From contig JANQPF010000021.1 in NCBI GenBank assembly GCA_028285415.1, forward strand, positions 1 to 64,000: 64,000 nt of DNA, given 5' to 3'. Positions 8,131-11,824 of the stretch are shown here, piece by piece. Made by a program: the position numbers and the translations under genes. The stretch's first letter is position 1, and each line of letters opens with the position of its first letter. Source of the DNA: Pseudomonadales bacterium (GTDB taxonomy: Bacteria; Pseudomonadota; Gammaproteobacteria; Pseudomonadales; Azotimanducaceae). The notes below the pieces were generated by a model. The model was not told where the DNA came from. It did not search any database and saw nothing but the letters and a program-made list of their open reading frames with translations.

Positions 8131-8206
8131 GTAAGCCCCTCTTTTCAGACAATATTTCGAATAAATGTTGCAGACAAATTGCCAGTCTAGGGAACCTCTG
8201 AATGAG

Positions 8207-8223
8207 TGTACAATCGACGTACA
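8207..8223. promoter_or_regulatory. Inverted repeat TGTAC-N7-GTACA over a possible -10 box
   Basis: In the 112-base divergent gap, TGTAC (8207-8211) and GTACA (8219-8223) form a perfect inverted repeat with a seven-base spacer. TACAAT at 8209-8214 inside it resembles a sigma-70 -10 element for the rightward CHAD/redoxin unit, but no good -35 is visible. A dimeric repressor could bind here. The assignment rests on symmetry and position only. Confidence 0.35.
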
Positions 8224-8242
8224 AGAAACCTGGGGGAAAACG

Positions 8243-9244
8243 GTGCGGCTGGCGGACTTCGTCGTAAGTTACAGCCTGGAAATCAATAACCGGTGTCTGC
8301 GGTACCTGGCCGAATGTGACGCCCGCGGCAGCATGCTGGCTGCTGATCAGGGCGCTGCGGTGGCTGCAGAGATGCATACCGTCTATGCCGAAAGCCTGCT
8401 CGCCCGGGACAGTCGCCGCCTGACCAGCATGTGGGCCCTGACCGCACCCGGCTGGAAAGGGGTGAACGGGGCGCTGGGTGAGCATGTCGACGGGCTCAGG
8501 GAAGCCTCCGGAGCCCTGACGGATGCCGCATCCAACCGCCGGCTGGCGTTGCGGTTGGCCTCCCTTGCCAGTGAAGACGACGAAGCAGAGGCCATTCTCA
8601 AGGTGGCACGCAAGCTGCCGAGCGAGGTGCCGCTGACCTGGGACGATCTGAATGACTTGTTTGCCGACGACAGCGCCTGTTGGCGCGCTGCGGACAGTTT
8701 CCGGGCGCTGGCTGACGAAGAGGTGCTCAAGCGCGTCGCGCGCAGCTACCGCAAAGGGCACCGCCTGGCTGGTGCGCTGCGCGAGCATGCGGCGGACGGC
8801 AGCGTGGTCGTCTGGCTGGACGACGAAAGCGACAAGTTTCACAAATGGGTGCAGCTGACGGCGCATCAGATGGAACTTTTCCGCGGCGGACTGTCAGAAA
8901 AAACCAAGGCGCAGCTGTGGTATCTGGACAAAATGTCGGACACGCTGCGCACTCGCGCCGGTTTGCGGGCCCTCAAGCGCGCGACGCGCCGGGTCAACGT
9001 GAAGAAGTCCGTGGCGAAAACTGTGGTCGGTTACATCGATCAGCAGATTACCAAGATGGACAAACGGATCGTGCGTCTGGCTGACGGGTGTTTCAACGTG
9101 AAGCCACGGCGGGTCGAAGCCGCGCTGGGCCAGGCGTTCAGCGCGCTCGGATTGCCGGAGGTCACGCTGATGGACCCGCAGGTCGCGGCGAACACGCCGA
9201 CCGGCCGGTTAGAGCAGATAGAGAGAATAGAGAGAACGGTTTGA
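8243..9244 (+). CDS. CHAD domain-like protein
   Basis: A GTG at 8243 preceded by GGGGG (8232-8236) is chosen as start and gives 333 residues; the frame stays open to 8165. The protein is helical and rich in Arg, Lys and His. Its middle part ('YRKGHRLAGALREHAADGSVVVWLDDESDKFHKWVQLTAHQMELF...LWYLDKMSDTL') resembles CHAD domains, which are four-helix bundles linked to polyphosphate binding, and it may carry two such units. Similarity is weak, so the family call is moderate. The stop is followed two bases later by the ATG of the redoxin gene, suggesting one operon. No signal peptide is seen, so it should be cytoplasmic. Confidence 0.6.
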   Translation: MRLADFVVSYSLEINNRCLRYLAECDARGSMLAADQGAAVAAEMHTVYAESLLARDSRRLTSMWALTAPGWKGVNGALGEHVDGLREASGALTDAASNRRLALRLASLASEDDEAEAILKVARKLPSEVPLTWDDLNDLFADDSACWRAADSFRALADEEVLKRVARSYRKGHRLAGALREHAADGSVVVWLDDESDKFHKWVQLTAHQMELFRGGLSEKTKAQLWYLDKMSDTLRTRAGLRALKRATRRVNVKKSVAKTVVGYIDQQITKMDKRIVRLADGCFNVKPRRVEAALGQAFSALGLPEVTLMDPQVAANTPTGRLEQIERIERTV

Positions 9245-9246
9245 GG

Positions 9247-9834
9247 ATGTACAAACGCGTAGTGGATTTGTGGCGCTGGTCGATACTGCTGCCCGGGGTG
9301 TTGCTCGTCAGCGTGATCGCCACGGCCGAGGATGACTATGCAACCGGTTGGGGTCCGGCAATCGGCAGCGCGTTGCCTGTCCTCGATGCACCGGATCAGA
9401 GCGGAGCGCGGCGCACGCTTGCCGATCTCAGTGGTGACCAGGGATTGTTGTTGTTCCTCAGCCGATCGGCCGACTGGTGACCCTTCTGTAAAAACCAGTT
9501 CGTGCAACTGGAAGAATGGCGTGAACAATTTGCGGGTCTGGGCATCAACGTAGCGGGTATGACCTATGACGAGCTTGGCATCCTGGCGGAGTTTCATGCT
9601 GCGGAGAATCTTGGCTTTCCGCTGCTCAAAGACGAGAACGCCCGGCACGTCAATGCGCTCGGCATTCGCAACGAAGACTACGACCAAGGCCACCGGGCGT
9701 ACGGCATACCCCACCCCGGCATTCTCCTCATCAGCCCGGACGGTAAGATCAAGGCGAAGTATGCGGTGCCCGGGTATCGCCGCAGACCGCCGTTCAAGGC
9801 GTTGTATGGAGACGTTGAAGCGGCGCTGCGCTAG
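9247..9834 (+). CDS. Redoxin-family selenoprotein (AhpC/TSA-like), TGA at 9478-9480 read as selenocysteine
   Basis: The ATG at 9247 opens a frame interrupted only by TGA at 9478-9480 and closed by TAG at 9832-9834. Read through, it gives 195 residues with U78. An N-terminal hydrophobic signal or anchor (about 10-28, ending 'VSVIATA') points to the periplasm. The rest is a thioredoxin fold of the AhpC/TSA group: 'AIGSALPVLDAPDQSGARRTL', then 'RSADW-U-PFCKNQ', then 'YGIPHPGILLISPDGKI'. The TGA falls exactly on the first Cys of a WCxxC active site, giving UxxC, and homology continues without a frameshift on the far side. A hairpin fitting bacterial SECIS rules follows the TGA. It would reduce a peroxide or disulfide. 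The alternative is a nonsense mutation in a CxxC redoxin. Confidence 0.83.
9481..9514 (+). promoter_or_regulatory. Bacterial SECIS-like hairpin downstream of the UGA codon
   Basis: Inside the coding sequence, CCAGTT (9495-9500) and AACTGG (9506-9511) form a perfect six-base-pair stem closed by the loop CGTGC (9501-9505). The loop G at 9502 is the second loop base and lies 22 bases past the TGA. Bacterial SECIS elements bound by SelB have a short stem with a G in the first two loop positions, 16-37 bases after the UGA. A lower stem CTTC (9483-9486) with GAAG (9511-9514) would need an asymmetric bulge. Confidence 0.7.
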
Positions 9835-9957: not shown

Positions 9958-10830
9958 ATGCGCCGCACCATGAAACGCCACCATCGACATCTCCCGCTCC
10001 TGTTTGCCGCCTGGCTGAGCCTGGCCGGTTGTTCGTCGATCGTCAGCTCTGTGACACAGGGTTTTGCCGACGACCTGTCCACGGCGATTCTGGACAATGA
10101 AGATCTGGCAATGGTGCGTGACGGCGCGCCGTCCTACTTGATCCTGATCGACAGCCTCGTCGCCCGTTCCCCCGATGACGCCTACATGCTGCAACAGTCG
10201 GCCTCGCTGCATTCTGCTTACGCCGCCGCGTTTGTCACGGACGAGAAGCGGGCAAAGCTCCTCCACGACAAAGCCAGGAGCCAGGCGCTGGCTGCAGCCT
10301 GTATCAGACTGAAAGATGCCTGTGGCCTCGATACCCGGCCGTTTCGCGAGTTTGAAAACTGGGTGCAGCAGCGTAAGTTGAAGGAGGTACCGGCACTTTA
10401 CGATCTGGGCACCACCTGGGCGAGTTGGATACAGGCGAACAGCGACGATTTCAACGCGATCGCCGACCTGGCACGGGTCAAGGCGTTGATGCTCAAAGTG
10501 ACGGAGCTCGACGACAGTCACGACAACGGCGGCGTTTATCTATACTTAGGTGTGTTCGAAACACTGTTTCCGCCTGCCATGGGCGGTAACCCTGAGCTGG
10601 GGAAGGAGTATTTCGAGGCAGCGGTGTTACGCTCGGAAGGTGCAAATCTGATGGCCAAAGTGCTTTTTGCCGAGCAGTACGCCAGACTGGTTTTCGACCG
10701 GGAACTGCACGACAAGCTCCTGAGTGAGGTGCTGACGGCGCCGGCCAGGGCTCCCGGCTTGACGTTGATGAACACGGTGGCGCAGGAACAGGCTCAACAA
10801 CTTCTGGATTCAGCGGATGACTATTTTTAG
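9958..10830 (+). CDS. TatT-like lipoprotein of a TRAP transporter (TRAP-T component)
   Basis: The 290-residue product has a lipoprotein signal ending in 'LSLAGC' with lipidated C25; an ATG at 9970 is an equally good start. The mature part is all helical. Its sequence ('PSYLILIDSLVARSPDDAYMLQQSASLHSAYAAAF', 'LKDACGLDTRPFREFENWV', 'YLYLGVFETLFPPAMGGNPELGKEYFEAAV') matches the TatT family, TPR-like lipoproteins that bind DctP-type receptors and are thought to handle hydrophobic ligands. It starts the seven-gene overlapping operon and overlaps the DctP gene by 14 bases. A 123-base gap separates it from the redoxin gene. Confidence 0.88.
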   Translation: MRRTMKRHHRHLPLLFAAWLSLAGCSSIVSSVTQGFADDLSTAILDNEDLAMVRDGAPSYLILIDSLVARSPDDAYMLQQSASLHSAYAAAFVTDEKRAKLLHDKARSQALAAACIRLKDACGLDTRPFREFENWVQQRKLKEVPALYDLGTTWASWIQANSDDFNAIADLARVKALMLKVTELDDSHDNGGVYLYLGVFETLFPPAMGGNPELGKEYFEAAVLRSEGANLMAKVLFAEQYARLVFDRELHDKLLSEVLTAPARAPGLTLMNTVAQEQAQQLLDSADDYF

Positions 10831-11824
10831 ACGGTTTGGTTTTCTTCTGGTGTTGTGTGCCGGCTGCCTTACGCTGCCGGCGCAGGCGGCAACGTTCAAG
10901 ATAGCAACCCTCTCTCCCGAGGGCTCAGGCTGGATGAAGGTGCTGCGCAAGTACGGCAAGCGCATCGAGGAACGCACCGACGGTGAAGTGAAGTTCAAGT
11001 TTTACCCGGGCGGCGTCATGGGTGATGACAAGGCGGTCATGCGGAAAATGCGCGTCGGGCAGCTGCATGGCGCCGTGGTGACCTCTGGCGGGCTGGCCCA
11101 GGTTTACCCGGACATTGCGCTTTACAGCATGCCGATGCTGTTCCGCAGCGAGGCGGAGATTGATCACGTGCGGGCGGCCCTGGACAGCCAGCTCATGGCG
11201 GGGTTGCGTGAGGAAAAATACGTGGGTTTCGGCTTTGCTGAAGTTGGATTCGCCTACCCGATGTCCCAGCAGCCCGCGGTGAGCGTGACCGCGATGCGGC
11301 AGCGTAAGGTATGGACGCCCGACAACGATCAGGCGTCGCTCGAGGGGTTCAAGGCGTTCGACATATCGCCGATTCCCCTGCCGATCGCCGACGTGCTCGC
11401 AGGCCTTCAAACCGGGCTCATCGACAGCATCGCGTCGCCGCCGATCGGCGCAATAGCTCTGCAGTGGCACACCCAGGTCGACTACGCGCTGGAGCTGCCG
11501 CTACTCTACATTTACGGCCTTTTTGCCATGGCAGAGCGGCCCTTTAACCGGCTTTCGGCTGAGCATCAGGCGGTTGTCAGCGAAGAGATGCAAACGGCGG
11601 TCAAAGAGGTGGACGCTGCGGCGCGCCGGGATCACAACAGTGCCAAGGCCGCATTGTCCAATCAAGGCATCGAGTGGCTGCAGCCGGGTTCCGAAGATAC
11701 AACGGAATGGATAACTCTGGCGGACGACGCCCGCCGCGACATGGTAGCGGGCGACTATATCTCCGCCGGTTTGTACCAGAAGACCATCGATCTACTCGCA
11801 GAGTTCCGCGAATCGGGTGGTTGA
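10817..11824 (+). CDS. TRAP transporter solute-binding protein, DctP family
   Basis: This 335-residue periplasmic protein has a signal peptide cleaved near 'LPAQAA' (residues 22-25). The mature part begins 'TFKIATLSPEGSGWMKVLRKYGKRIEERTDGEVKFKFYPGGVMGDD', the usual DctP opening, with the family's conserved arginine region near 'YPMSQQPAVSVTAMRQRKVWTPDND'. It should pass ligand to the DctQ and DctM membrane subunits, with the TatT lipoprotein as partner. It overlaps the genes on both sides by 14 and 8 bases. The TatT-associated DctP branch is generally not a C4-dicarboxylate binder, so the ligand is open. Confidence 0.92.
   Translation: MTIFRRFGFLLVLCAGCLTLPAQAATFKIATLSPEGSGWMKVLRKYGKRIEERTDGEVKFKFYPGGVMGDDKAVMRKMRVGQLHGAVVTSGGLAQVYPDIALYSMPMLFRSEAEIDHVRAALDSQLMAGLREEKYVGFGFAEVGFAYPMSQQPAVSVTAMRQRKVWTPDNDQASLEGFKAFDISPIPLPIADVLAGLQTGLIDSIASPPIGAIALQWHTQVDYALELPLLYIYGLFAMAERPFNRLSAEHQAVVSEEMQTAVKEVDAAARRDHNSAKAALSNQGIEWLQPGSEDTTEWITLADDARRDMVAGDYISAGLYQKTIDLLAEFRESGG

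Follow-up and report, generated by a model that had tools for sequence, protein, structure and literature searches.

A redoxin gene of marine Pseudomonadales carries a conserved in-frame UGA that is very probably read as selenocysteine

Is a redoxin gene that is interrupted by an in-frame TGA a decaying pseudogene, or is the TGA read as selenocysteine? The question is raised by a gene on the forward strand (9247..9834) of the window, the 64-kb stretch of DNA that was analysed. Its frame opens with ATG at 9247, runs into TGA at 9478-9480 and closes with TAG at 9832-9834, without any other interruption. The first-pass annotation had proposed that an apparently truncated redoxin and a separate downstream ORF are joined through this TGA, and its coordinates proved to be exact. 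When the TGA is read as U, the predicted product has 195 residues, with U78 as the first residue of the motif W-U-P-F-C. The U-x-x-C partner, Cys81 (9487..9489), is invariant in all 23 rows of our alignment A1. Two Pfam profiles extend across the TGA, AhpC-TSA (PF00578) with 75.9 bits (cut-off 26) and Redoxin (PF08534) with 44.1 bits (cut-off 26.6), and the redoxin continues in the same frame up to the TAG, as had been claimed. For other genes of the window TGA is an ordinary stop, an example being the ORF at 8165-9244.

One search covered 58 genomes, including the window's own; at E<=0.001, matches were found in 49 of these. At E<=1e-12 there are 45 matches, each of which contains exactly one stop, a TGA, and this holds down to an identity of about 28%. 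They comprise two from the window's own genome (the gene and a paralogue), 42 from the same genus and one from another family. Relatives broken by other lesions, which had been named as the mark of a pseudogene, are absent among them. The weaker matches of this search are mostly to other redoxins and are mixed, some having one TGA while others are free of stops. The window's own genome has three more matches, with 25-33% identity and no stop.

The order search covered 390 genomes (the window's own and two same-genus genomes of the 58-genome set included). At E<=1e-12, 43 genomes matched, 26 of them with the TGA and 17 without a stop. The stop-free group consists of five genomes of genus g321 from family f223 (46-55% identity to the window protein), ten of family f219 (34-42%), G657 (33%) and G477 (28%). 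A class-wide search at the same threshold matched a single one of 369 genomes, and this is the window's own. Upon tblastn against plasmids, 15 records were found, all below 60% identity; the five matches listed have 27-31% identity and are annotated as peroxiredoxin-like, alkyl hydroperoxide reductase or bcp.

The codon at residue 78 was compared across 62 loci. These are the two TGA genes of the window's genome, 29 loci from the 58-genome search, 12 new ones from the order search and 19 of 20 further stretches, the twentieth being the stretch with a third redoxin, which was excluded. Also excluded were the weak-match loci of the window's genome, search matches without a locus (e.g. G657 and G477) and 17 loci used for neighbourhood analysis, many of which are duplicates. 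The codon is TGA in 47 loci and TGC or TGT in the other 15. Alignment with Cys homologues, which had been suggested as a check, places their Cys at residue 78 and thus bears out the assignment of Sec to the first Cys of the redox site.

Eleven clade members, chosen among the 46 other Sec loci, were compared with the window gene, with gap-free counting that starts at the TGA and proceeds in both directions. Downstream of the TGA, pN is 0.09-0.28 and pS 0.53-0.95, and the corresponding upstream values are 0.19-0.40 and 0.61-0.91. We conclude that purifying selection acts on the sequence beyond the TGA; pS is near saturation, and the conclusion is therefore limited to a downstream constraint which is about as strong as the upstream one.

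The TGA is followed by a hairpin (9495..9511, forward strand) with the sequence CCAGUU-CGUGC-AACUGG, which has a stem of 6 bp and the loop CGUGC, with the loop G at 9502, 22 nt past the UGA. The rules for bacterial SECIS elements in the relevant passage of PMC13188914 are a loop of 3-9 nt, a stem of 4-16 bp, a G within the first two loop bases, 16-37 nt from the UGA to the loop, and an energy <= -7.5 kcal/mol. With a loop of 5 nt, a stem of 6 bp, G in second position and 20 nt from UGA to loop, the hairpin agrees with all rules on geometry, and its earlier description was found to be exact. With regard to energy, the result depends on the stretch that is folded, and the passage in that paper names none. 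Folding of 9478-9520 returns the hairpin with an MFE of -7.6 kcal/mol (z -0.76; 44 of 200 shuffles at least as good), while 9481-9525 gives -6.9 kcal/mol (z -0.01; equalled or bettered by 96 of 200 shuffles). For the apical hairpin of 19 nt taken by itself, the energy is -6.1 kcal/mol (z -2.59), a value reached by 3 of 200 shuffles. The folding energy alone is unremarkable, and taken on its own the hairpin counts for little. When the window was crudely scanned for TGA codons with a hairpin and a Cys/Ser/Thr motif, 16 candidates emerged, the redoxin TGA among them; the other 15 were judged by eye to be chance, based on the residues around each TGA. In the 64-kb window, Rfam at gathering thresholds gave no match and ARAGORN no tRNA.

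As the hairpin alone barely exceeds chance, the case for recoding rests on comparison. Four lines stand above chance: the conservation of the TGA, a Cys at the equivalent residue in outgroups, a stem covariation confined to Sec genes, and the presence of the Sec machinery in the genome. All six pairs are complete in 44 of the 47 Sec genes (with five pairs in the other three) versus only one of the 15 Cys genes. When synonymous codons are shuffled for the same proteins, the expectation for six pairs is 0.155 for Sec and 0.051 for Cys genes. Loop bases GU are found in all 47 Sec genes versus three of the 15 Cys genes. Among the 45 distinct Sec rows, which remain after removal of rows with N or with an identical stretch, 98.9% of the cells pair and covariation is 0.387 versus 0.160 in shuffles, none of the 500 being as high. 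Three pairs vary on both sides, a count which is unexceptional, as it is reached by 166 of 500 shuffles. For the 15 Cys rows, 73.3% of the cells pair and covariation (0.114) equals that in shuffles (0.112) almost exactly. Covariation of the stem is seen in Sec genes only. The kinship of the sequences inflates the shuffle significance; the Cys rows, though fewer, share this type of kinship and act as a control. A covariance model of the hairpin retrieved the window gene and its paralogue from the window's genome at E<=1e-9, together with seven weak matches (E 0.3-8). It does not provide a selenoprotein count because both strong matches belong to the training set and the third UxxC redoxin was missed.

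The genome which contains the window (5.97 Mb, 99% complete) was checked for the genes required for selenocysteine insertion, and all four of those that the first-pass annotation had asked for were found. The genes for selA (523.7 bits) and selB (409.9 bits) are adjacent and lie beside the gene for tRNA-Sec, which scores 73.6 bits, above the Rfam cut-off, and for which ARAGORN agrees, with anticodon tca. In this sel locus (L022:3571-6872, reverse strand), roughly 25 nt separate the tRNA gene from the preceding selB, and there is a 4-base overlap between selA and selB. selD (271 bits) is the C-terminal part of a 720-residue protein (L069:1402-3564, reverse strand). By eye, the N-terminal part of this protein resembles NADH dehydrogenase (Ndh), and it looks like the Ndh part of the Ndh-SelD fusions to which PMC2398784 refers.

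Co-occurrence with selB (E<=1e-60) was analysed for 41 genomes. All 22 genomes in which a UGA redoxin matches at E<=1e-12 have selB; three of them contain only relatives of 26-31% identity. selB also occurs in five of the 17 Cys-only genomes (G579 and four from g321) and in both genomes without a redoxin match. Of the 36 relatives within the genus, 29 carry a UGA redoxin (E<=1e-12), and selB is found in 24 of these. The five UGA-redoxin genomes in which selB was not found (G009, G029, G031, G032, G033) are 58-96% complete and consist of 90-520 contigs. In one of them, G029, a fragment of selA lies at the end of a contig; in the other four there is no selA at E<=1e-40. The missing selB in these five is likely to result from assembly gaps.

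If the TGA were an ordinary inactivating stop, with the downstream part decaying, this would be in keeping with the presence of one in-frame stop and with the failure to find selB in five of the 29 genomes just mentioned. However, one and the same TGA without a second stop in all 45 matches, down to about 28% identity, the purifying selection on the downstream part and the covariation of the hairpin make a pseudogene exceedingly improbable. The frame would likewise stay open beyond the TGA with any inserted residue, and in a selenium-free reading an altered code or near-cognate suppression might supply an ordinary amino acid. Yet tRNA-Sec, selA, selB and selD are all present, the TGA occupies the position of the catalytic Cys, the hairpin is kept in Sec but not in Cys genes, and TGA terminates other genes of the window, such as the one at 8165-9244. 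We consider such a reading to have hardly any chance of being correct. That the TGA is recoded as selenocysteine, and that the gene is not a pseudogene, is in our view close to certain. At the level of sequence comparison, both the recoding and the equivalence of Sec and Cys at residue 78 are established.

The distribution of Sec and Cys forms was examined in a tree of 61 proteins (L049 was left out). This tree needs two changes between Sec and Cys, and two are forced by well-supported branches. Within the f223 group (99/98), all five Cys rows from g321 cluster together (100/98) and stand beside a Sec row with moderate support (82/95). By parsimony, g321 would have undergone a Sec-to-Cys switch that is nested among Sec forms. 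The Cys forms of f219 have two Sec rows as their sister group; the tree's root is a single long branch. In the five g321 Cys loci (L082, L084, L087, L089, L090) the loop GU is kept in none, and selB is present in four of the five genomes. As judged from these sequences, the g321 orthologues show a Sec-to-Cys change with loss of the SECIS element, and they allow one to see how such an element disappears after the change.

The gene starts with a hydrophobic segment (9247..9330) which, by eye, is a likely export signal. The first-pass annotation had taken it to indicate a periplasmic or membrane-anchored enzyme, and similar segments recur among the relatives in A1, again judged by eye. The redoxin is probably exported. 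The AlphaFold2 model has a mean pLDDT of 86.9, with low values (55-60) for residues 1-30, and in this model Sec78 directly precedes a helix that begins at residue 79. The best Foldseek matches are Bcp4, BcpB, PrxQ and other peroxiredoxins, a ResA-like protein following at rank 29, while Bcp and ResA chains are listed first in a profile search.

Which chemistry the enzyme carries out is less clear than its recoding. In PMC2398784, TxxU is given as the motif of Sec-peroxiredoxins, which have Thr three residues before Sec. The window protein has Ala75 at this position, and all 23 rows of A1 have Ala or Val. For this reason we lean towards thiol:disulfide exchange, rather than classical peroxiredoxin chemistry, as the main activity. 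That the selenoprotein acts mainly as a Prx-type peroxidase is a somewhat doubtful but serious alternative. It draws on the best matching folds and profiles, which are Bcp/PrxQ peroxiredoxins, and on the Pfam assignment to AhpC-TSA; UxxC instead of TxxU and the Ala or Val three residues before Sec speak against it, as does the score for the BCP/PrxQ thiol peroxidase model NF006960 (44.3 versus a cut-off of 140 bits). The window protein stays below the cut-off of every NCBIfam model listed for it. The SelL-related redox protein model NF040769 matches weakly in all 23 members of A1 and gives 34 bits for the window protein, its cut-off being 120. The members of A1 also show weak profile matches to the ResA/DsbE/TlpA group, ResA in 23 of 23 and DsbE in 12-13 of 23. 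The window protein differs from that group in having Sec for Cys, and its ResA score is 30.2 bits versus a cut-off of 170.

The following course of events is proposed. SelB loaded with Sec-tRNA(Sec) would bind the hairpin at 9495-9511 and the UGA at 9478-9480 would be decoded as selenocysteine, giving the full-length product of 195 residues, whose active site is W-Sec-Pro-Phe-Cys. Once in the periplasm, Sec78 would most likely attack a disulfide or a peroxide and then form a selenenylsulfide with Cys81, to be reduced by a thiol reductant. In bacterial recoding, termination and Sec insertion compete. From this general background one might argue that two products matter, a 77-residue fragment terminated at the UGA and the full protein, with selenium supply setting the amount of enzyme. 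However, the fragment would be missing the catalytic pair as well as the greater part of the fold, and therefore it is unlikely to have a function of its own; we consider such a dual role improbable.

Selenoproteins of this kind have been described before. A Prx-like UXXC selenoprotein family is among those reported from the Sargasso Sea (PMC1088965), and the GOS study (PMC2398784) contains a family Prx-like 1 (pfam00578, UxxC, 225 sequences) besides other Prx-like families. Entries quoted from PMC13188914 include a Prx-like thiol:disulfide oxidoreductase (PF00578; UxxC, UxxU) and a Redoxin family protein (PF08534; UxxC). With 75.9 bits against the gathering score of 26 and its W-U-P-F-C motif, the window protein shares the Pfam family, the UxxC motif and a marine bacterial source with the former group, a likeness at the level of family and motif. 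It also scores above the PF08534 cut-off and has the UxxC of the Redoxin family protein as that paper's entry describes it, AhpC-TSA scoring higher (75.9 versus 44.1 bits). At this level the gene fits the published Prx-like, PF00578, UxxC selenoproteins, and its kind is thus already known from ocean bacteria. In contrast to that group, it comes with a known host lineage, a gene neighbourhood and Cys orthologues. What is added are its spread in Pseudomonadales, the TAtT-TRAP operon that follows it, and the Sec-to-Cys switch in a sister lineage whose genomes mostly retain selB. Among the title and abstract matches listed, there was none on the selenoproteins of this clade, their Cys switch or their neighbourhood.

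The gene downstream of the redoxin (9958..10830, forward strand) codes, according to Pfam, for TAtT, a TRAP transporter T-component (PF16811), and is followed by a gene for DctP, the solute-binding protein of a TRAP transporter (10817..11824, forward strand; profile matches). Among 17 loci, TAtT is downstream of the redoxin in 16 and DctP is present in 15; the exceptions are L065, where TAtT is not downstream, and L055, which ends before DctP. The upstream ORF at 8165-9244 (359 aa) ends 2 nt before the redoxin and has a match near the redoxin in seven of the 17 loci, but it has no Pfam match even at E=10. In 20 further loci, TAtT-DctPQM is beside the redoxin in three, all of them in the same family but in other genera. 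No such set was found beside the orthologues from f223 (7), f219 (4), f4, f226 and genus g293 (2), beside the paralogue or in the stretch with the third redoxin. This distribution indicates that the neighbourhood is a feature of part of one family and not of the enzyme as such.

A tentative and rather unlikely scenario is that an exported Sec-redoxin clade has been kept as Sec throughout one marine Pseudomonadales family, in part of which it is functionally tied to TAtT-TRAP uptake, and has become Cys in a sister lineage that mostly keeps selB. If this were true, it would be a natural paired experiment on keeping versus dropping Sec in gammaproteobacteria whose habitat is probably oxygenated water, a lifestyle which we assume. 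Selenoproteins are said in PMC13188914 to be rarely retained by aerobic bacteria, while a figure given in PMC5029168 is that 40.4% of Sec users are aerobic. The matched Sec and Cys orthologues would allow a direct test of what Sec provides to the enzyme. Genes of this kind are easily split or called broken under automatic annotation.

Two more UGA-containing redoxins were found in the same genome. The paralogue with a TGA (C2:413830-414351) is 46% identical to the window protein. A third UxxC redoxin (C34:111159; locus L108:548-1723) has 391 residues, the motif W-U-P-A-C, an AhpC-TSA domain and its own long SECIS-like hairpin; its C-terminal part is without a Pfam match. Longer relatives with one TGA also occur elsewhere, as at L051:1330-2544 and in rows of the 58-genome and order searches with open frames of about 380-430 aa. 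L051, which belongs to the same genus, combines AhpC-TSA with DsbD_N (PF11412) and contains one TGA. It resembles the Prx-like U/CxxC protein fused to Pfam11412 that PMC9402790 reports, and from which the window protein differs in being without the PF11412 part.
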